From Bacteroidaceae bacterium (GTDB lineage: Bacteria; Bacteroidota; Bacteroidia; Bacteroidales; Bacteroidaceae): a stretch of DNA of 64,000 nucleotides. The position numbers were made by a program, and so were the translations under genes. Location: the NCBI GenBank assembly GCA_017448825.1, contig JAFSKR010000064.1:1-64000 (forward strand), read 5' to 3'. Shown piece by piece: positions 8,213-31,866 of the stretch; the first letter of the stretch is position 1, and each line of letters begins with the position of its first letter. Under the pieces are notes generated by a model, which ran no database searches, was not told the DNA's origin, and saw only the letters and a program-made list of their open reading frames with translations.

Positions 8213-9022
8213 ATGGCTGATTTATCAAATTTTTCTTTGGAAGGTAAGAACGCATGGATTACAGGTGCTTCTTACGGTATCGGTTTCAACATCGCCAAGG
8301 CTTTTGTGAAAGCTGGTGCCAACATGATTGTGTTCAACGACATCAACGAGGCAGCCTTGCAGCGTGGTCTCGACAACTACAAGGAGGCTGGCATCACGAA
8401 CGTGAAGGGTTATGTGTGTGACGTGACCAACGAGGCTGGCGTGAAAGCACTTGTTGACACCATCCACAAGGAAGTGGGTCAGATTGACATCCTTGTGAAC
8501 AACGCAGGTATCATCAAGCGTATCCCAATGCATGAGATGGCACGTGCAGAGTTCCAACAGGTCATCGACATCGACCTGGTGGCACCATTCATTTGTGCCA
8601 GTGCTGTGCTGCCTGAGATGATGGAGCGCAAGGAGGGCAAGATCATCAACATCTGCTCGATGATGAGCGAGTTGGGTCGTGAGACCGTGAGTGCCTACGC
8701 TGCTGCCAAGGGTGGCTTGAAGATGTTGACCCGCAACATCTGCTCAGAGTATGGCGAGTACAACATCCAATGCAACGGTATCGGTCCAGGCTATATCGCC
8801 ACGCCTCAGACGGCTCCATTGCGCGAACGTCAACCCGACGGCTCTCGTCATCCGTTCGATTCGTTCATCTGTGCCAAGACTCCAGCTGGCCGTTGGCTCG
8901 ACCCATCCGAATTGGGTGGTCCCGCAGTGTTCTTGGCTTCTCATGCCTCTGATGCTGTGAACGGACACGTGCTCTACGTGGACGGCGGCATTTTGGCTTA
9001 CATCGGAAAGCAACCGAAATAA
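8213..9022 (+). CDS. SDR oxidoreductase, gluconate 5-dehydrogenase-like
   Basis: A 269-residue classical short-chain dehydrogenase. The NAD(P)-binding motif TGASYGIG is at 18-25, NNAG at 96-99, and the catalytic Ser149, Tyr162 and Lys166 (YAAAK) are all present. It matches the Bacteroidales proteins annotated as gluconate 5-dehydrogenase or 2-deoxy-D-gluconate 3-dehydrogenase (KduD-like), which interconvert keto- and hydroxy-sugar acids in hexuronate or pectin breakdown. No pectin genes are next to it, so the exact substrate is open. A 95-nt A/T-rich leader precedes the ATG. Confidence 0.85.
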   Translation: MADLSNFSLEGKNAWITGASYGIGFNIAKAFVKAGANMIVFNDINEAALQRGLDNYKEAGITNVKGYVCDVTNEAGVKALVDTIHKEVGQIDILVNNAGIIKRIPMHEMARAEFQQVIDIDLVAPFICASAVLPEMMERKEGKIINICSMMSELGRETVSAYAAAKGGLKMLTRNICSEYGEYNIQCNGIGPGYIATPQTAPLRERQPDGSRHPFDSFICAKTPAGRWLDPSELGGPAVFLASHASDAVNGHVLYVDGGILAYIGKQPK

Positions 9023-9121
9023 AGCCCCCCCAAAGGGGGAGGCTATGCAGATGGGTTCTCGGAAGAAAGCAAATGAACGACAAAGTGGAAGCCCTCCCCC
9101 TTCAGGGGCAGGGGGGCTTCT
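9023..9121. repeat. GC-rich palindromic element (family B) overlapping the rnhB N-terminus
   Basis: Left arm AGCCCCCCCAAAGGGGGAGG (about 9024-9043) pairs imperfectly with the C/G-rich right arm at about 9091-9120 (CCCTCCCCCTTCAGGGG and a following G run). The loop contains the ATG codons at 9045 and 9051 used by rnhB. Related elements occur at 9459-9560, 29,863-29,987 and 30,468-30,612. Confidence 0.7.
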
Positions 9122-9818
9122 ACCTTATTATAAACAAGGTGTCATCGAAGCAGGCTGTGACGAAGCAGGCAGGGGATGCTTGGCGGGCAGCGTGTATGCA
9201 GCAGCGGTTATCTTGCCTCCTGACTATCACAACAACCTGCTGAACGACTCAAAACAACTCACCGCCAAGCAACGTTACGCCTTACGTGAGCAGATAGAGC
9301 ACGACGCGGTGGCATGGGCACTGGGCATCGTGACGGCACAGGAGATTGACGAGATGAATATCCTTCGTGCCAGCATCACTGCCATGCACCGAGCCATTGA
9401 CGGCTTGCAGGTGAGACCTCAACACATCATCGTGGACGGCAACCGCTTTATGCCATACCGAAACCCCTCTCCCCAACCCTCCCCCATGATGGGGAGGGAG
9501 ACCGTTCGGATGGCTCTCCACCATCATGGGGAGATGTTCGAAGGACAGAGAGGGTCTGCCATCCCTCACACCACCATCGTTAAAGGGGATGGAAAGTACC
9601 TCTCCATTGCGGCAGCATCCATCTTGGCGAAGACCTACCGCGATGACTACATGAAAGAACTGCATAAAGAATTCCCTTTCTACGGATGGGACCACAATGC
9701 GGGCTATCCTACCAAAGAACATCGCCAAGGTATTGAAAATCATGGGACTACACCTTATCATCGGATGTCTTTCAACCTTTTGGGGACGATGCAACTCGAA
9801 CTTCCCTTCACAGAATAG
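9045..9818 (+). CDS. rnhB: Ribonuclease HII carrying palindrome-derived insertions
   Basis: RNase HII cleaves the RNA strand of RNA-DNA hybrids and single ribonucleotides in DNA. Active-site segments are present: CDEAGRG with D39/E40, NDSKQL (67-72), VDGN (130-133) and the conserved SIAAASILAKTYRD region. At 257 residues it is longer than usual (about 200). Two extra segments explain this: residues 1-24, encoded by a palindromic element ahead of the expected native start near LLPYY, and residues 139-172 between RFMPY and IPHTTIVKGD, encoded by a second element. The catalytic residues are intact, so it is probably functional. The start could be the ATG at 9045 or 9051; no start codon remains at the ancestral position. 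Confidence 0.9.
   Translation: MQMGSRKKANERQSGSPPPSGAGGLLPYYKQGVIEAGCDEAGRGCLAGSVYAAAVILPPDYHNNLLNDSKQLTAKQRYALREQIEHDAVAWALGIVTAQEIDEMNILRASITAMHRAIDGLQVRPQHIIVDGNRFMPYRNPSPQPSPMMGRETVRMALHHHGEMFEGQRGSAIPHTTIVKGDGKYLSIAAASILAKTYRDDYMKELHKEFPFYGWDHNAGYPTKEHRQGIENHGTTPYHRMSFNLLGTMQLELPFTE
9459..9560. repeat. Family B palindromic element inside rnhB
   Basis: 102 nt (34 codons) inserted in frame. The left part (CCCTCCCCCATGATGGGG) and right part (CCATCATGGGGAGATGTTCG) are imperfect complements, and the right part ends with GAAGGACAGAGAGGGTCT, identical to the end of the element in leuS at 29,971-29,988. Confidence 0.75.
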
Positions 9819-24254: not shown

Positions 24255-24696
24255 TTCAGAAGAATACTTTGTGCTTTACAGAAAAAGGTGTAATTTTGCA
24301 ACGTTTTACCTAAATAGACGCACTTCCTGAAGTCGTACAATAGGTGAACAAACTACATATTAAAAGGCGTTACTGACGCTTTGTTTTTGGTTCTCGAAAC
24401 TTCCACTTTCAGATTTGCAATCGAAAACAATGCAGAGGTGATGCTCATGGGAGTGTAGTATATGCACATCCCAAGTGTGCGGAGGGGCATGCACCCTCAT
24501 GCACACTTTAGGGTGTTCAATATACTTCCTTACGTGGGTGTTTGACTCTGTCCTGTTTATTGCAAAGGTTGTGGAAGACCTCGAGAACGAACAGGCAGAT
24601 GGCAAGCACCTCGTTTTTTGTATGTGGTTTCATAACACAAAACTATAAACAACTGCTTAGAGGTGCGTGGCAGTTTTTCTTGCAAACGTGCATAAA
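24255..24696. other. Non-coding stretch before the restriction-modification pair
   Basis: About 440 nt with no supported plus-strand gene. The minus strand reads open from 24,605 to 24,360 as up to 81 residues rich in His and Cys (HILHSHEHHL), but the start is unclear and I do not recognise it; it may be a gene remnant. Direct and inverted GTGCATG/GCATGCA words occur near 24,470-24,510. It may mark the left edge of the accessory patch. Confidence 0.35.
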
Positions 24697-26013
24697 ATGC
24701 CACGAAACGAAAAAGCATTGATTTCTAAAGGTTTGTCCATGTTCGATGTGGTCAAACGCACAATTGATAAGGCTGTTAAAGGAGTGTTTGATGAAACCTG
24801 CCTTGATGAAGATGGGCATGTTTTATCTTTTAATGAGCAAGTCGCAATTGTCACGCACTATTTGATGCTGAAAGAAAGCGGCATGTTTTGTAGCACTTAT
24901 GAGGGGAAAGGACGCGACATCTTAAAACTGTGGTACGAATTTGCCACAGGGGAATCTTCAGAATTTGAGTCTGAATACATAGCCAGCGAAGACACTTTCT
25001 ATGGAAGTTTCTTTCACAACGTAACATTAGCGCCATTCCATGCACAAGAAAAACCCACATTTCGTTTTATAGATCTTTTTGCGGGTATTGGGGGATTCCG
25101 AATCGCTATGCAGGATTGCGGAGGTGAATGTGTATATTCATCAGAATGGGACGAAAAGGCTCAAAAAACTTACTATGTCAATTTCGGAGAGTTTCCATTT
25201 GGAGATATAACACAAGAGTACAACAAACGTTTGATTCCTGATGGATTTGATGTGTTGTGCGCAGGATTCCCATGTCAAGCCTTTTCAATTGCAGGATATA
25301 GAAAAGGATTTGAAGACACCCGTGGGACATTGTTTTTTGATGTTGCAGAAATTATACGTCGCAAAAAGCCTAAAGCGGTATATTTAGAAAATGTAAAGAA
25401 CCTATATACACACGATAATGGTAAAACTTTTCAAGTAATTAAGAATACGTTGGAAGAATTAGGCTATGTTGTGTATCATAAAGTGATGAACGCAATGGAA
25501 TATGCAAATGTGCCTCAAAACAGAGAGCGTATCTTCATTGTTTGTTTTGATCCTCAACAAGTACCTAATCATACAGAGTTCACTTTCCCTGAAAAAGAAC
25601 CATTGGAACGAACAATACATGACTGCATTGATTACACGAATAAAGAAACGAAACTCTTTTATGGCGACAACATGGGGCATATTGAAGAGATTCGTTCTGG
25701 CGTAAGATCAAAGGATACTATTTATCAATGGAGGCGTCAATATGTCCGAGAAAATAAGAGTAATGTATGTCCAACACTTACGGCCAACATGGGAACAGGA
25801 GGGCATAATGTCCCTTTAATCTTAACAAATGAGGGCATTCGCAAACTATCGCCAAAAGAATGTCTAAATTTTCAAGGATTCCCAGAAGAATATACTTTCC
25901 CTAAAGACATAGCTGATTCTGCAAAATACAAACAAGCAGGGAATTCTGTCGTTGTACCTTTAATCAGAAAAGTATGCAAGAACATCATTACAACAATCTC
26001 CAAGAGTTCTTAG
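24697..26013 (+). CDS. DNA (cytosine-5-)-methyltransferase of a type II R-M system
   Basis: 438 residues from the ATG at 24,697 (an in-frame GTG at 24,667 is possible). The C5-MTase motifs are in order: FIDLFAGIGGF (motif I, 124-134), GFPCQAFS with catalytic Cys193 (IV), ENVKNL from Glu231 (VI), QNRERIFIV (VIII) and QAGNSVVVPL (X). The target recognition region is short. About 120 residues before motif I form an extra N-terminal domain that I do not recognise; M.HhaI-type enzymes start almost at motif I. It methylates cytosine in an unknown site, protecting host DNA from the nuclease encoded next, whose start overlaps by 40 nt. Codon use is AT-richer than the neighbouring genes, which suggests transfer. 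Confidence 0.92.
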   Translation: MPRNEKALISKGLSMFDVVKRTIDKAVKGVFDETCLDEDGHVLSFNEQVAIVTHYLMLKESGMFCSTYEGKGRDILKLWYEFATGESSEFESEYIASEDTFYGSFFHNVTLAPFHAQEKPTFRFIDLFAGIGGFRIAMQDCGGECVYSSEWDEKAQKTYYVNFGEFPFGDITQEYNKRLIPDGFDVLCAGFPCQAFSIAGYRKGFEDTRGTLFFDVAEIIRRKKPKAVYLENVKNLYTHDNGKTFQVIKNTLEELGYVVYHKVMNAMEYANVPQNRERIFIVCFDPQQVPNHTEFTFPEKEPLERTIHDCIDYTNKETKLFYGDNMGHIEEIRSGVRSKDTIYQWRRQYVRENKSNVCPTLTANMGTGGHNVPLILTNEGIRKLSPKECLNFQGFPEEYTFPKDIADSAKYKQAGNSVVVPLIRKVCKNIITTISKSS

Positions 26014-27149
26014 GAGGATGGCAAGAGAATGAGAAATACTTTGAGATGCTTAAATTGATGGCTCAATTAAGCAAATTGTTCTCTGAAAATGAAGTACCTT
26101 ATCTTGACTATCGCTTGACTGAGAACCTGTTTTGTCGGTACTACCAAGCGATGAATGATGCAAGGTCTTGTACAGCATACGATGCAAGAATCTCAGCTGT
26201 AGGTATTGGTATTAAGACATTTATCCTCAAGAAAGACCAATCCATAGAAAAGATAGCAGAGTTCAATAGATTGAAAAAGAATCTTGAAGGATTAAAGGGG
26301 ATTGAATTAGCACGGAAAATAGGAGAATTTCGAAATGACAGAATGCACTTTGCTAATAATGTTTTTGATGTTTCGGAAACACAATATCACATTGTTGGAC
26401 GCAAAGAAGGGTTATTGAGAGTCTTCAATTGCCCTTATGAAGAAGTTGATGTTGAGAACATCATACTCAGGAAGGATGATGCCACGTCTATCACCTTTGA
26501 GGATGGGAAAAACGAATTTGTATTCAACAAAAGCAAGAGCGTTTTGATGAAACGTTTTGAAGTTCCATCAAAGGGATATAAAGATGTCGAGGTTGAGATT
26601 GTAAAAGAACCCTTGACGTTGCTTGAAGATTTCTTTATAAACTACAATAAAAAAATAGCAAGCACCCCCAAGCGGGTCAAAGGTGTTGATTATGTTATAC
26701 TGCCATTGTATTCTGTCCGCAATGGAGAAGTACCCATGAAATCCGGTCTTAACCAATGGAATGCTGGTGGACGTGTAAGGCATGAAGATGAAGTGTACAT
26801 TCCCGTACCCATTGCCATACACAAAAATTACCCTCATTTCTTTCCAAATCGTGAAACACCTTTCGTTTTATATTTACCCGATGGGAATATCCTTTCCGCT
26901 AAAATCTGTCAAGAAAATGGTAAGGCGTTAATGTCAAATCCTAATCGTAAGTTAGGCCATTGGCTACTTCGTAAGGTGTTAAAGAAAAAGCCTTGGGAAC
27001 TCGTAACATGGAATGACCTAAATCGTTATGGCTTTGATAGTATATGTGTGGAAAACTTACATAGCTCAAACGACGTTGGAGAAAGTGAATTCCGATTGTG
27101 CTTTGCCTCTTCAAGCGAATCGTATAGTGAATTTATAGAGAAAGAATAA
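25974..27149 (+). CDS. Putative type II restriction endonuclease with C-terminal B3-like domain
   Basis: 391 residues, overlapping the methyltransferase gene by 40 nt in another frame. The C-terminal part (about 245-375) contains SGLNQWNAGGR, EVYIPVPIAIH, FFPNRETPFVLYLPDG and LGHWLLRKVLKKKPW, which resembles the B3-like DNA-binding domain of BfiI and NgoAVII-type enzymes. The N-terminal half lacks the HxK motif of the PLD nuclease usually joined to it; instead Asp70 and VGIGIKTF (76-83, Lys81) look like a PD-(D/E)XK-type active site, with FRNDRMHF downstream. The nuclease assignment rests on this motif and on the methyltransferase partner. Base composition is as AT-rich as its partner. An internal start at Met25 or Met29 cannot be excluded. 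Confidence 0.7.
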   Translation: MQEHHYNNLQEFLGGWQENEKYFEMLKLMAQLSKLFSENEVPYLDYRLTENLFCRYYQAMNDARSCTAYDARISAVGIGIKTFILKKDQSIEKIAEFNRLKKNLEGLKGIELARKIGEFRNDRMHFANNVFDVSETQYHIVGRKEGLLRVFNCPYEEVDVENIILRKDDATSITFEDGKNEFVFNKSKSVLMKRFEVPSKGYKDVEVEIVKEPLTLLEDFFINYNKKIASTPKRVKGVDYVILPLYSVRNGEVPMKSGLNQWNAGGRVRHEDEVYIPVPIAIHKNYPHFFPNRETPFVLYLPDGNILSAKICQENGKALMSNPNRKLGHWLLRKVLKKKPWELVTWNDLNRYGFDSICVENLHSSNDVGESEFRLCFASSSESYSEFIEKE

Positions 27150-27483: not shown

Positions 27484-30465
27484 ATGGAATACAATTTTAG
27501 AGAGATTGAGAAGAAATGGCAGCAGAGGTGGGTGGAGGAAAAGACCTACCGTGTTGCTGAAGATAAGAACAAGCCGAAGTTTTATGTGCTGAATATGTTC
27601 CCCTACCCGAGTGGGGCAGGTTTGCACGTGGGACACCCTCTGGGGTATATCGCCAGTGACATCTATGCTCGCTTCAAGCGGTTGCAGGGATATAATGTGC
27701 TGAACCCGATGGGGTATGATGCGTATGGGTTGCCTGCGGAGCAGTATGCAATTCAGACAGGACAACATCCTGAAAAGACGACGTTTCAAAATATTGACCG
27801 TTATCGTGAGCAATTGGACAAGATTGGCTTCTGCTTCGATTGGGACAGAGAGGTGAGGACGTGTGCGCCTGGGTATTACAAGTGGACGCAGTGGGCATTC
27901 CAGAAGATGTTCGGTTCTTTCTTTAGTAAGAGCCCCCTAACCCCCGAAGGGGAAAGCTATCCAGGCGGCAGGGCTTATCCTATAGAGGAGCTGGTGGCGT
28001 ATTTTGAGGAAAAAGGCACGGATGGGTTGGATGAGTATGGTGTGGCTCAGACGGAGAACCTGACGTTCTCTGCTGAGGAATGGAAGGCGATGGATGAGAA
28101 GCAGAAGAGCGACACGCTGATGAACTACAGGATTGCCTTCATGGGCGAGACGATGGTGAACTGGTGTGCAGGACTGGGCACGGTGTTGGCGAATGATGAA
28201 GTGGTGGATGGTGTGAGTGTGCGTGGTGGTTTCCCTGTGGAGCAGAAAAAGATGAGGCAGTGGTGTTTGCGTGTGAGTGCGTATGCTCAGCGGCTGTTGG
28301 ACGGACTGGAGACGATTGAGTGGAGCGACTCTATCAAGGAGACTCAGAAGAACTGGATAGGACGAAGTGAAGGTGCTGAGGTGGAATTCAAGATAGCTGA
28401 TTCTGACGAGAGTTTCACCATCTTCACCACTCGTGCTGACACGATGTTCGGTGTGACGTTCATGGTGCTGGCTCCTGAGAGTGAACTGGTGGAGAAGGTG
28501 ACAACTGCAGAACAGAAGGCTGCTGTGGAGGACTATATTAAATATGTGAAAGGACGCACGGAGCGTGAACGCATGATTGACCACAAGGTGACGGGCGTGT
28601 TCTCGGGTTCGTATGCCATCAATCCTTTCACAGGCGAAAAGAACCCCATCTGGATTTCGGAGTATGTGTTAGCAGGGTATGGTACGGGTGCCATCATGGC
28701 TGTGCCTGCTCATGACAGCCGCGACTATGCGTTTGCCAAACACTTCAATCTCCCCATCATCCCACTCATCGAGGGGGCTGACATTTCAGAGGAGAGCTAC
28801 GATGCTAAGGAGGGTATCGTGACCAACTCACCTCGCAAGGATGTGAAGCCATACATTGATTTCAGCCTCAACGGACTCACGGTGAAGGAAGCCATTGCTG
28901 CCACGAAGAAGTATGTGAAGGAAGCAGGGTTGGGTCGTGTGAAGGTGAACTACCGCCTGCGCGATGCCATCTTCTCCCGTCAGCGTTATTGGGGCGAACC
29001 TTTCCCTGTCTATTACAAGAACGGCATCCCCACGATGATTCCTGAGGAGTGTCTGCCCATTGAATTGCCAGAAGTGGATAAATTCTTGCCTACTGAGACT
29101 GGTGAACCCCCACTTGGCAACGCTACAGTTTGGGCTTGGGACGAGTTGAACAAAAAGATAGTGGAGAACAGCAAGATTGACAACAAGACCGTGTTCCCCA
29201 TTGAGCTTTACACCATGCCAGGCTTTGCGGGCAGTTCTGCTTATTACCTCCGCTATATGGATCCACACAATGACGAGGCATTGGTGAGCAAGGAGGCTGA
29301 CGAGTACTGGCAGAATGTGGACTTGTATGTGGGTGGCAGTGAACACGCTACAGGTCACTTGATTTACAGCCGTTTCTGGAACAAGTTCCTTTTCGACCTC
29401 GGCGTGTCCTGCAAGGAAGAGCCTTTCCAGAAGCTCATCAATCAAGGCATGATTCAGGGACGAAGCAACTTCGTGTATCGCATCAAGGACACGAACACGT
29501 TTGTCTCTTTTGATAAGAAGGACGGCTACGATGTGACTCCGATTCATGTGGATGTGAACATCGTGAGTGCCGATGTGCTTGATGTGGATGCTTTCAAGGC
29601 ATGGCGACCTGAATACGAGACTGCTGAGTTCATCCTCAACGACGAGGGTAAGTACGTATGTGGATGGGCAGTGGAGAAGATGTCGAAGTCTATGTTCAAC
29701 GTGGTGAACCCCGACATGATTGTGGAGAAGTTCGGTGCTGACACTTTGCGTCTCTACGAAATGTTCTTGGGTCCTGTGGAACAAAGTAAGCCTTGGGACA
29801 CCAATGGCATTGACGGTTGCCACCGCTTCCTGAAGAAGCTTTGGAAGTTTATGACACAGACAGACCCCCTCTGTCCTTCGGACATCTCCCCCTCTATGGG
29901 GAGACCTTGCGGCGAGGGAGCTATTGAGAACAAGCCGAATGGCAATCTCCCCATAGAGGGGGAGATGTCCGAAGGACAGAGAGGGTCTTCTCCTTCGAAG
30001 GAGGAACTGAAGGCACTCCACACGCTCATCAAGAAGGAAACGGCTGACATCGAGGCCTTCTCATATAATACAACCATCGCTGCCTTCATGGTGTGCCTCA
30101 ACGAACTCACGAAGTTGAAATGTACGAGCCGTGAGGTGAAGGAAACGCTTGTCATCCTGCTCGCTCCGTTCTGTCCACATCTTGCTGAAGAGCTCTGGCA
30201 CTTGTTGGGTCATGACACCTGTGTGTGTGATGCTCCTTGGCCAGCCTTCAACGAGGAATACCTGAAGGAGGACTCCGTGAAGATGATGGTTGCCTTTAAT
30301 GGTAAGGCACGTTTCCCATTGGAGTTCCCTGCTGACGTGACCAAAGAAGATGCCGAAAAAGCCGCCCTTGCTGACCCACAATCTGCCAAGTGGATGGAGG
30401 GCTTCACGGTTGCCAAAGTCATCGTGGTGCCTGGCAAAATGATTAACGTAGTGCTGAAGAAATAA
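27484..30465 (+). CDS. leuS: Leucyl-tRNA synthetase with in-frame palindrome-derived insertions
   Basis: 993-residue class I synthetase that charges tRNA-Leu. HIGH motif HVGH at 48-51, CP1 editing domain with the Thr-rich [15 protein letters not shown] segment, a DDSRDYA-type editing motif ([11 protein letters not shown]) and KMSKS at 732-736. Two segments do not belong to the family: SPLTPEGES (150-158) ahead of PIEEL, and about 42 residues (794-835, [13 protein letters not shown] up to GQRGS) in the anticodon-binding helical domain. The latter is encoded by a nearly perfect 42-bp inverted repeat. As the sole leuS seen here, with catalytic motifs intact, it is presumably functional, so the extra loop must be tolerated. 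Confidence 0.95.
27931..27960. repeat. Short GC-rich hairpin insertion in leuS
   Basis: AGCCCCCTAACCCCCGAAGG followed by GGAAAGCT encodes SPLTPEGES, a peptide not expected in LeuRS. The AGCCCC...GGGG and AG...CT ends are self-complementary. It looks like a short relative of the family B elements. Confidence 0.5.
29863..29987. repeat. Family B palindromic element inside leuS (best copy)
   Basis: A 42-bp left arm (29,863-29,904) and 42-bp right arm (29,946-29,987) are complementary with one mismatch by eye, around a 41-nt loop. The left arm starts GACCCCCTCTGTCCTTCGGA; the right arm ends GAAGGACAGAGAGGGTC. It is read through in frame as about 42 residues. Confidence 0.9.
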
Positions 30466-30467
30466 GA

Positions 30468-30612
30468 GACCCTCTCTGTCCTTTGGACATCTCCCCCTCT
30501 ATGGGGAGAATTGCCATGCGGCGAGATTGTATAAACTATGGTTCAAGAACAAAAGACAAACAAACCGAATGGTCTTCCTCCCCATAGAAGGGGAGGATGG
30601 AGGTGGGGGTCT
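30468..30612. repeat. Family B palindromic element between leuS and the YitT gene
   Basis: The left arm (30,468-30,509) is almost identical to the leuS copy (CATCTCCCCCTCTATGGGGA). The right side (about 30,577-30,612, CCTCCCCATAGAAGGGGAGG) is more diverged. The loop includes AAACCGAATGG, also present in the leuS copy as AAGCCGAATGG. The start codon of the YitT gene (30,538) lies in the loop. Confidence 0.8.
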
Positions 30613-31866
30613 GAACTAAAGGATTATGCCCTCATCTCTGTGGGTGTAATCCTATATGCTATGGGAGTGACCGTGTTCATGCTGCCCTACAGTTTGACAA
30701 CAGGTGGTGTGGCAGGTGTGGCTTCCATCATCTACTACGCCACAGGCATTGAGGTGCAGGTCACTTACGTTGTTATCAACATCATCCTGCTTATCATAGC
30801 CATCAAGGAACTTGGCATCCGCTTCTGCATCAAGACCATCTATGCCGTCTTCTTCATGACCTTCGTGCTGTGGCTCTTCCAACGTATCATTGAAGTCCCC
30901 GACCCTGTTCATGCAGGAAAGACGATGTTGCCACACTTCATTGGCGACGAATCCTTCATGGCTTGTGTGTTGGGAGCTATCCTGTGTGGTTCTGGTGTGG
31001 CACTTTGTTTTGAGAACAACGGCTCCACGGGAGGAACCGACATCATTGCCGCCATTGTGAACAAGCACAAAAACATGTCGTTAGGCAGTGTCATCATGGC
31101 TTGCGATGTGGTCATCATCTCTTCCTGCTACTTCATCTTCCACGACTGGTTCCGCGTCATCTATGGCTTCGTGATGCTGTTCATCTGCTCCACCACGATT
31201 GACTACTGGATGCGCCGCCGTCACCAATCTGTGCAGTTCATGATATTCTCCCGTAATGCCGATGCCATTGCTGATGCTATTGTCAGCACCCATCATGGAG
31301 TGACGGTCTTGAATGGTGAAGGGTGGTTCACCCATACCGACCGCAAAGTCATCATCAGTGTCATCCGTCGTCGCGAACAGGCTATGATACAACGTATGGT
31401 CAAGCAGATAGACCCCTACGCCTTTGTCTCTATGACGGATGCCAGCGGTGTGTGGGGCGAAGGATTCGACCAGATGAAAGTGAGCGATGGCACGTCCAAG
31501 AATTTCCTTTCCAAGAAGAAGAAAGAAGAGAGACGGAAGAGAAAGAACACCGTGTTAGTGTGTGTAACAAACAACACCACCAAGATTGACACCGCTCAAC
31601 AGGCACTTGGCGACTGCTACGACATTCGTTCCCTCCTGCAAGTGGGGTGTGACACACGCAAAGAGTTCTATTCCGTCGTGCTTGGTCAGGAACCTCGCAA
31701 ACGTGTTGCCTTCATCAAGAAGTTTTTCGGCTTCGATGCCTTCTACATGGCGAAGGACGGTACCGTCACCCTTGTACAAGGCAACTATGACCAGGCCGAG
31801 TATGACATCACGGAACACACCAACCTTGAAAACCTAAAGACCTATCTGGAAGGAAAGAAGAAATAG
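30538..31866 (+). CDS. YitT/DUF2179 membrane protein with extra C-terminal domain
   Basis: 442 residues. The YitT membrane region (about 28-215, five or more hydrophobic helices, signatures TTGGVAGVASI and ENNGSTGGTDIIA) is followed by the DUF2179 domain (about 225-310, ending GVWGEGFDQMK). A basic linker (KKKKEERRKRK) then leads to about 105 residues not usual in the family: VCVTNNTTKIDTAQQAL, SLLQVGCD and FIKKFFGFDAFYM, which look like the N-terminal half of RdgB/HAM1 NTP pyrophosphatases. The first 20 or so residues (KPNGLPPHRRGGWRWGS) are encoded by a palindromic element. Function of the family is unknown; some members are annotated as transporters. Confidence 0.85.
   Translation: MVQEQKTNKPNGLPPHRRGGWRWGSELKDYALISVGVILYAMGVTVFMLPYSLTTGGVAGVASIIYYATGIEVQVTYVVINIILLIIAIKELGIRFCIKTIYAVFFMTFVLWLFQRIIEVPDPVHAGKTMLPHFIGDESFMACVLGAILCGSGVALCFENNGSTGGTDIIAAIVNKHKNMSLGSVIMACDVVIISSCYFIFHDWFRVIYGFVMLFICSTTIDYWMRRRHQSVQFMIFSRNADAIADAIVSTHHGVTVLNGEGWFTHTDRKVIISVIRRREQAMIQRMVKQIDPYAFVSMTDASGVWGEGFDQMKVSDGTSKNFLSKKKKEERRKRKNTVLVCVTNNTTKIDTAQQALGDCYDIRSLLQVGCDTRKEFYSVVLGQEPRKRVAFIKKFFGFDAFYMAKDGTVTLVQGNYDQAEYDITEHTNLENLKTYLEGKKK

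Follow-up and report, generated by a model that had tools for sequence, protein, structure and literature searches.

The leuS locus and its palindromic insertion

The window, i.e., the whole stretch of 64,000 nucleotides that was analysed, belongs to an uncultured gut Bacteroidaceae genome (G000) of 2.95 Mb, which is assembled in 75 contigs and is 86% complete. It carries leuS, the gene of leucyl-tRNA synthetase (LeuRS), and this gene is the host of a palindromic element that is kept in frame (Table 1). The closest named relatives of the protein come from uncultured Bacteroidaceae, Prevotellaceae, and Bacteroidales assemblies, mostly metagenomic, and several isolates are named after sheep, reindeer, and other animals. 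Just upstream of leuS, at positions 24667-27149, a C-5 cytosine methylase gene is followed by an open reading frame with an NgoFVII-type restriction domain; the two are likely a restriction-modification pair.

Table 1. Genes and element copies located in the window
Feature	Position	Strand	Basis
leuS, leucyl-tRNA synthetase, host gene	27484..30465	+	ORF, 993 aa; Pfam tRNA-synt_1_2, tRNA-synt_1, Anticodon_1; PDB 1h3n, E 6e-178
127-bp palindromic element in frame in leuS, short nuclease-less form	29862..29988	+	inverted repeat; relatives; alignment to both ends of the DUF559 element
Left arm of the leuS palindrome, AGACC... terminal inverted repeat	29862..29904	+	inverted-repeat search
41-nt loop: left subterminal (CCTTGCGG) joined to right subterminal (AACAAGCCGAATGGC) of the full element	29905..29945	+	
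Right arm of the leuS palindrome, ...GGTCT terminal inverted repeat	29946..29988	+	inverted-repeat search
Decayed single left end of AAGCCCCC-type element, in frame in leuS, residues about 149-163	27928..27975	+	alignment with L028/L029; end approximate
Second element copy at the leuS|yitT junction, carries ATG	30467..30612	+	repeat search; relatives
YitT-family gene, first residues (MVQEQKTNKPNGLPPHRRGGWRWGS) encoded by the element	30538..31866	+	ORF; Pfam YitT_membrane, DUF2179; start inferred from frame
rnhB, ribonuclease HII, second host gene in the window	8964..9818	+	frame and Pfam RNase_HII; start codon not fixed
Element copy in frame in an rnhB loop, residues about 167-199	9461..9557	+	left end approximate

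The two arms of the leuS palindrome (43 nt) are 98% complementary, with one mismatch, and enclose 41 nt, and the open reading frame of 993 aa runs right across them. A palindrome with one mismatch, a 41-nt loop, and an open frame is what the original prediction had described, and the repeat coordinates and the reading frame confirm it. The pairing of the arms also stood, but they had been given as 42 bp within 29863..29987 and are in fact 43 bp within 29862-29988. The left arm had further been seen about 0.5 kb downstream, outside leuS, and it does recur there, at 30467-30509 (95%). The predicted RNA fold of the palindrome reaches -99.9 kcal/mol; shuffled sequences average -45.4, and none of 200 folds as well (z -14). 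The linker of leuS that holds the element measures 186 nt in the window versus 87 nt in L003 and many others, a net increase of 99 nt. With the loss of about 28 nt of native linker taken into account, LeuRS gains 33 codons net and not the 42 or so foreign residues that had been proposed, although the insertion itself is real. The placement within the anticodon-binding region was not upheld: Pfam Anticodon_1 begins at residue 842, and the insert sits at the N-terminal border of that domain.

LeuRS was aligned with relatives from 37 of the 60 other genomes searched, of which 29 were among the matches listed and eight came from nine additionally chosen loci (three of the nine were chosen for interrupted matches, and L038, with no usable frame, was left out). 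A short native linker occupies the palindrome site in 34 of these 37, which confirms the insertion. In the remaining three, the same linker holds two other element types, one in L002 (AGACCCTCTCCCCAACC...) and one in L028 and L029 (AAGCCCCCTCCCAACC...), and native DNA is again missing (35 nt in L002, 40 nt in L028). Only two of 80 named LeuRS relatives have an insert at that linker, and these are taken to be the same genomes as L002 and L029. LeuRS has been entered at other points too. Residues about 149-163 are an insertion point in the window, where a decayed single end remains, in L028 and L029, and in others among the 80 named relatives; short elements lie at residue 306 in L028, L029, and L031, with 13 nt of native DNA missing in L028. 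At residue about 307, LeuRS of L037 (G037) carries an extension of ~18 residues without arm-like sequence, located at the same point of entry to the editing domain as the elements of other species.

Dispersed copies and their host genes

The leuS element gives 75 strand-wise matches in G000, palindromes being counted on both strands. These were merged to 33 places on 20 contig stretches and the window (a C29 match was left out), two of which are the two ends of one copy with a DUF559 domain. Eleven of the 31 copies examined lie in frame in ten genes with a Pfam match above the cut-off, i.e., those of LeuRS, FolP, Mfd (two copies), CbiJ-CbiD, IF2, TruA, FtsK, GSCFA, glycoside hydrolase 88, and RNase HII; the host gene names include leuS, folP, mfd, infB, truA, ftsK, rnhB, and cbiJ-cbiD. 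Several in-gene copies are partial (31-70 bp matched). Outside the ten stand L043 and L048, where a Pfam match is missing, and L054, which falls below the cut-off. The count is silent on how often insertion does harm because disrupted genes would not appear as spanning frames. No Rfam family matched the palindromic element within the window.

The claim that a dispersed palindrome had entered an essential gene with its frame kept is thus borne out by relatives that lack it, by the many copies, and by nine further Pfam-recognised hosts besides leuS. The view of it as a mobile or formerly mobile palindrome that tolerates coding use is likewise supported by the relatives without it and by the in-frame copies. 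The segment is not present in LeuRS of all relatives, and the repeat does occur elsewhere in the genome.

Complete copies are poor in stop codons: on average, 1.73 of 6 frames are open versus 0.99 in dinucleotide shuffles (15 copies). In seven hand-chosen cases, the right arm is read in one phase in leuS, folP, truA, infB, rnhB, and a TPR gene and in another phase in one mfd copy. A frame preference was dropped as a claim, as seven self-chosen cases are too few.

Of the ten host genes, leuS, rnhB, and folP were compared with relatives. The element in folP replaces the loop around G(T/N/S)P..MQ, with about 37 nt of target missing. A native loop is kept in 27 of the 29 relatives compared; the remaining two are a truncated sequence and one that carries a different insertion. 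Because the element removes this loop, the folP copy of G000 at L042 (G000:C49) may be impaired. In rnhB, 4 of 29 relatives compared have another element type in the same loop and 25 are without one. Across sites, about 12-40 bp of target are lost on insertion. No target-site duplication was seen at leuS, leuA|leuC, or leuS|yitT; the target is replaced instead.

Two other stretches of G000 are of a different kind. At L046 (G000:C42:1-11900), five scanned MacB/FtsX-type permease genes stand in a run with six element copies between or beside them, and the like loops of these copies suggest segment duplication. At L043 (G000:C72:49000-53500), three head-to-tail left-arm stretches lie in one open frame of 832 aa without a Pfam match, as if the arm had been amplified within a coding region.

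The full-length form and its DUF559 nuclease

The single DUF559 match of G000 lies on C44 between leuA and leuC and is flanked by element arms. The full form consists of an inverted arm (AGACCC...), a gene for a DUF559 (Vsr-like/EDxHD-related) endonuclease, and a second inverted arm (...GGGTCT). Since the leuS copy aligns with both outer ends of this element, including the subterminal CC(A/T)TGCGG and CCG(A/G)ATGGC, it looks like the DUF559 element minus its middle, with the ends joined.

Among 31 DUF559 sequences hand-chosen from 44 stand-alone frames, 18 columns are invariant, including R-Q, D-F, E-x-D-G, and H. Its profile matches PDB 3hrl, an endonuclease-like protein (E 2e-32), and 3r3p, a "Mobile intron protein" (E 5e-7), which we take to be I-Bth0305I. 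DUF559 is under purifying selection, with dN/dS of 0.05-0.13 in 11 of 15 pairs (two dS values exceed 2, and four pairs are saturated at synonymous sites). Several copies are broken, however; among 42 genus matches, 3 contain a stop codon. In Caulobacter, a DUF559 protein is reported to cause an SOS response in a methyltransferase mutant (PMC12907096), which by analogy would fit DUF559 as a DNA-cutting enzyme.

Arms were scored around 50 DUF559 loci, stand-alone and embedded ones together, which are 60 minus eight without a motif match and two with too short a flank. They exceed the 99th percentile of mismatched flank pairs at 21 loci and the 95th at 29, the latter being passed by 20 of 25 loci of the genus and 9 of 25 outside it. 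The stand-alone DUF559 genes include six close clades at orthologous sites, which also fits long vertical inheritance. Arm similarity within such clades was therefore dropped as proof of movement, since the flanks are orthologous, and the empty-site test at leuA|leuC was used instead.

This junction could be compared in 43 genomes of the genus with a leuC match, of which 8 are occupied and 35 are without DUF559. In 30 of the 35, only 26-46 nt separate the end of leuA from the conserved WDAH codons of leuC, typically the leuA stop followed by ACAATGGGAAAGACATTATTTGA. The other five (G017, G023, G028, G030, and G335) have longer spacers, and those of G030 and G335 open with an AGACC-like stretch. 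Occupied sites read leuA stop, AGACCC...GGGTCT, and AC(T/C)TTATTTGA or close to it, and one of the eight copies, in G029, is decayed. The element replaces the leuC start codon, and in all eight an in-frame ATG in the right end reads into leuC, whose open frame is 487-499 aa in the occupied genomes versus 463-466 in 24 of the 35 others. In G031 and G335, which lack the nuclease, this junction contains ATGGGGTCT, which reads like a relic of the element.

On a quick leuC tree built without bootstrap, occupancy needs 7 changes, of which starred branches force 6. As shuffling gives a mean of 7.4, the occupied genomes are no more clustered than chance would have them. Among the seven of eight occupied genomes compared, the nuclease of G000 shares 80% identity with its G021 counterpart versus 58-59% with those of G034, G036, and G012; for leuC, the order is reversed, with 81% to G021 versus 86-87% to G034, G036, and G012. 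In sequence terms, the pattern fits repeated gain of the element at leuA|leuC, as homing predicts. Part of it could come from loss by recombination with empty alleles.

A start codon is also replaced at the other end of leuS. Where the window has its second copy, eight relatives have a short native yitT leader (e.g., ...KSNIFHELKDYA), and in most native leaders, the ATG overlaps the leuS stop, as judged from the frame. The junction is occupied in the window and in G036 (L002), where the element supplies MVQEQKTN...; yitT was not found downstream in 21 of 30 loci examined. In some full elements, leuC has a leader (MEQNKMTNIPDG) similar to that of YitT. From these alignments, the element seems to provide a replacement start codon at two gene junctions, those of leuC and yitT.

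Across the order, DUF559 was found in 124 of 295 genomes sampled. At least 25 of the matches listed, by a count made by eye, fall within open frames of 300 aa or longer, and hosts were assigned for 17 of those 25, six having given no motif match and two being outside the Pfam scan. LeuRS is host in nine genomes from seven families, always at one site, the entry to the editing domain, and IleRS in three genomes, in one loop. Other hosts are ValRS, a DegT aminotransferase, two DNA methylases, and a sugar-biosynthesis protein, and one further in-frame case, within the genus, is in an epimerase-family gene. In a tree of 62 nucleases, the G000 enzyme groups with 18 of the 20 in-frame nucleases in a clade of strong support (100/99). 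On this tree, the LeuRS label requires 4 changes against a shuffled mean of 8.6 (0 of 500 as low) and the IleRS label 1 against 3.0, with a bootstrap that is not fully settled. Nuclease lineages thus go with host sites, and the LeuRS-embedded nucleases may have a single origin. Around 18 embedded DUF559 domains, inverted arms score above the 95th percentile of same-gene controls in 10 cases and above the control maximum in 4.

A conventional splicing element around the nuclease was considered and rejected, as neither kind of model matched in the material scanned. Pfam scans of 16 proteins with an embedded DUF559 gave no intein (Hint splicing domain), and among 19 loci, of which 18 have an embedded nuclease, no Rfam group I or group II intron family exceeded its gathering score, a single tRNA being the only match.

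What may move the element and what it means

A dispersed family of stop-poor palindromes lies in frame in core genes, and its ends are common to a nuclease-bearing element with a homing-like distribution. Judging from these shared ends, the leuS palindrome is probably a non-autonomous, internally deleted copy of a homing DUF559 element with inverted arms. The nuclease would cut empty sites, such as leuA|leuC, the entry to the LeuRS editing domain, and the IleRS loop, and an occupied copy, often that of another species, would serve as the template for repair, so that the element homes. Now and then, ectopic repair would place the ends at unrelated sites, whether or not the nuclease comes along, with a loss of about 12-40 bp of target. 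Because the arms are stop-poor and a start codon in the right end leads into the next gene, the host gene could keep working after insertion into a loop or at a gene start, and selection would retain the in-frame insertions. The insert would then stay in the protein as an extra peptide, no sign of splicing having been found. The larger element would be autonomous, and its nuclease would cut, and so move, both forms.

Co-occurrence within the genus points in the same direction. Both the element and a strong DUF559 match are present in 20 genomes and both are missing from 12; 2 genomes have only DUF559 and 11 only the element. The element is thus present in 20 of 22 genomes with strong DUF559 versus 11 of 23 without (Fisher p 0.003, with kinship and genome incompleteness ignored). 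Three genomes with weak DUF559 matches were counted as without; one of them is G029, which has the decayed leuA|leuC copy. As 11 of 23 genomes without a strong match carry the repeat, the nuclease may have been lost, may be unassembled, or may not be the sole mover.

Those 11 genomes are also what one would see if the palindromes were miniature transposons of an unrelated transposase and DUF559 were a passenger caught between two arms. The many types of arm sequence around one nuclease family would fit such a passenger, as would the 21 of 50 tested DUF559 loci whose arms score below the 95th percentile. However, DUF559 lies between arms in 20 of the 25 genus loci tested, it is kept by purifying selection and is kin to a mobile-intron nuclease, its pattern at leuA|leuC is homing-like, it forms a domain inside insertions of LeuRS, IleRS, and ValRS, and target duplication is not seen at leuS, leuA|leuC, or leuS|yitT. 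An unrelated transposase is therefore considered unlikely. REP-type repeats moved by a RAYT (Y1/HUH) transposase are a narrower version of the idea, to which each arm, readable by eye as short REP-like hairpins, lends something, as does the reported presence of REPs inside genes in several species (PMC3733652). The transposase survey, which covered Y1 enzymes, gave no Y1_Tnp match in the 86% complete G000, and RAYT was rejected as the mover on that ground. Moreover, Y1 exceeds the cut-off in 14 of 45 genus genomes and does not track the element: a Y1 gene occurs without any element match in G024, and the element matches number two in G004 and one in G014. The REP reading is, consequently, extremely improbable.

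It might also be asked whether the leuS segment is an insertion at all and whether it reaches the protein. Repeats can mis-join in a 75-contig assembly that is 86% complete, and the segment might be an artefact or ordinary native sequence; but it is flanked by sequence collinear with that of relatives, it leaves the frame intact, and the same spot holds two different element types in three other species, so that this reading is hardly credible. The predicted mRNA hairpin is very stable, as one might expect if the insert were removed by RNase III processing, translational bypass, or protein splicing and LeuRS were made without it. Against this, the net length in leuS, 99 nt, is a multiple of three, the host frames are open, and no intein or intron model matched in the scanned loci; removal is thus very unlikely. 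The preferred reading remains that of a DUF559 homing element and its internally deleted copies.

Like the EDxHD homing endonucleases, it has a related nuclease with conserved residues, occupied and empty sites, and insertion into conserved genes, a link that rests on 3r3p presumably being I-Bth0305I. The polymorphism of occupied and empty sites with horizontal gain is seen at leuA|leuC, in the stand-alone form. Unlike in that family (I-Bth0305I; PMC3943268), the nuclease was found with neither a group I intron nor an intein around it; inverted arms enclose it, it is in the host open frame when it is in a gene, and short nuclease-less derivatives are dispersed in the genome. Bacterial MITEs (ERIC, Correia/NEMIS, and RUP) are short, have terminal inverted repeats, and are in some cases in frame in genes (PMC2229807). 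The present palindromes likewise have terminal inverted repeats and appear to be internally deleted versions of a larger, presumably autonomous element, but no target duplication is seen and the partner is a nuclease, not a transposase. REP/REPtron repeats with RAYT are likewise palindromic hairpins, some in genes (PMC3733652), but they differ in architecture and by the Y1 transposase, which has no match in G000.

The nearest parallel is provided by the Rickettsia palindromic elements (RPEs), which are palindromes of 105-146 bp found between genes and in frame in conserved protein genes (PMC2229807, PMC10969869). The original prediction had drawn this comparison, and it holds in the sense of "works like": here, too, a 100-150 bp palindrome sits in frame in many unrelated protein genes, as compared by description. 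The phylum is different, however, and a full-length form with a nuclease gene exists, and targets are replaced. Nearly half of the RPE copies are in genes (PMC10969869), versus 11 of 31 copies in Pfam-recognised genes here. Target duplication by RPEs is marked with a question mark, and the movement of such elements is named as a future question (PMC2229807). In the literature searched, as far as its accessible parts go, neither the combination of a palindrome with DUF559 nor a Bacteroidales equivalent was found described, which agrees with what had been stated at the outset, and the titles and abstract openings of DUF559 papers mention no such element. The present analysis goes beyond the original prediction in that a DUF559 homing-type nuclease, present in the full-length form and with occupied and empty sites, is a likely cause.

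Whether a separate class of mobile elements is at hand appears to us evenly balanced. In such a class, a Vsr/EDxHD-type homing nuclease between palindromic arms would invade conserved genes in frame without a splicing device, by means of arms that encode a harmless peptide and of a substitute start codon, and it would shed nuclease-less palindromes that add peptide segments to essential proteins. For the coding palindromes of Rickettsia, no mover is known to us. Since a candidate enzyme, empty and occupied sites, and short derivatives are found in one genus, the question of movement becomes testable in a laboratory strain. If the proposal is true, it would provide a candidate mechanism for coding palindromes, perhaps also those of Rickettsia, and DUF559, a domain of unknown function, would gain a proposed role. 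It also suggests that selfish DNA can live in essential genes without introns or inteins and that it may be a source of new peptide segments in essential enzymes such as LeuRS, RNase HII, IF2, and FtsK.
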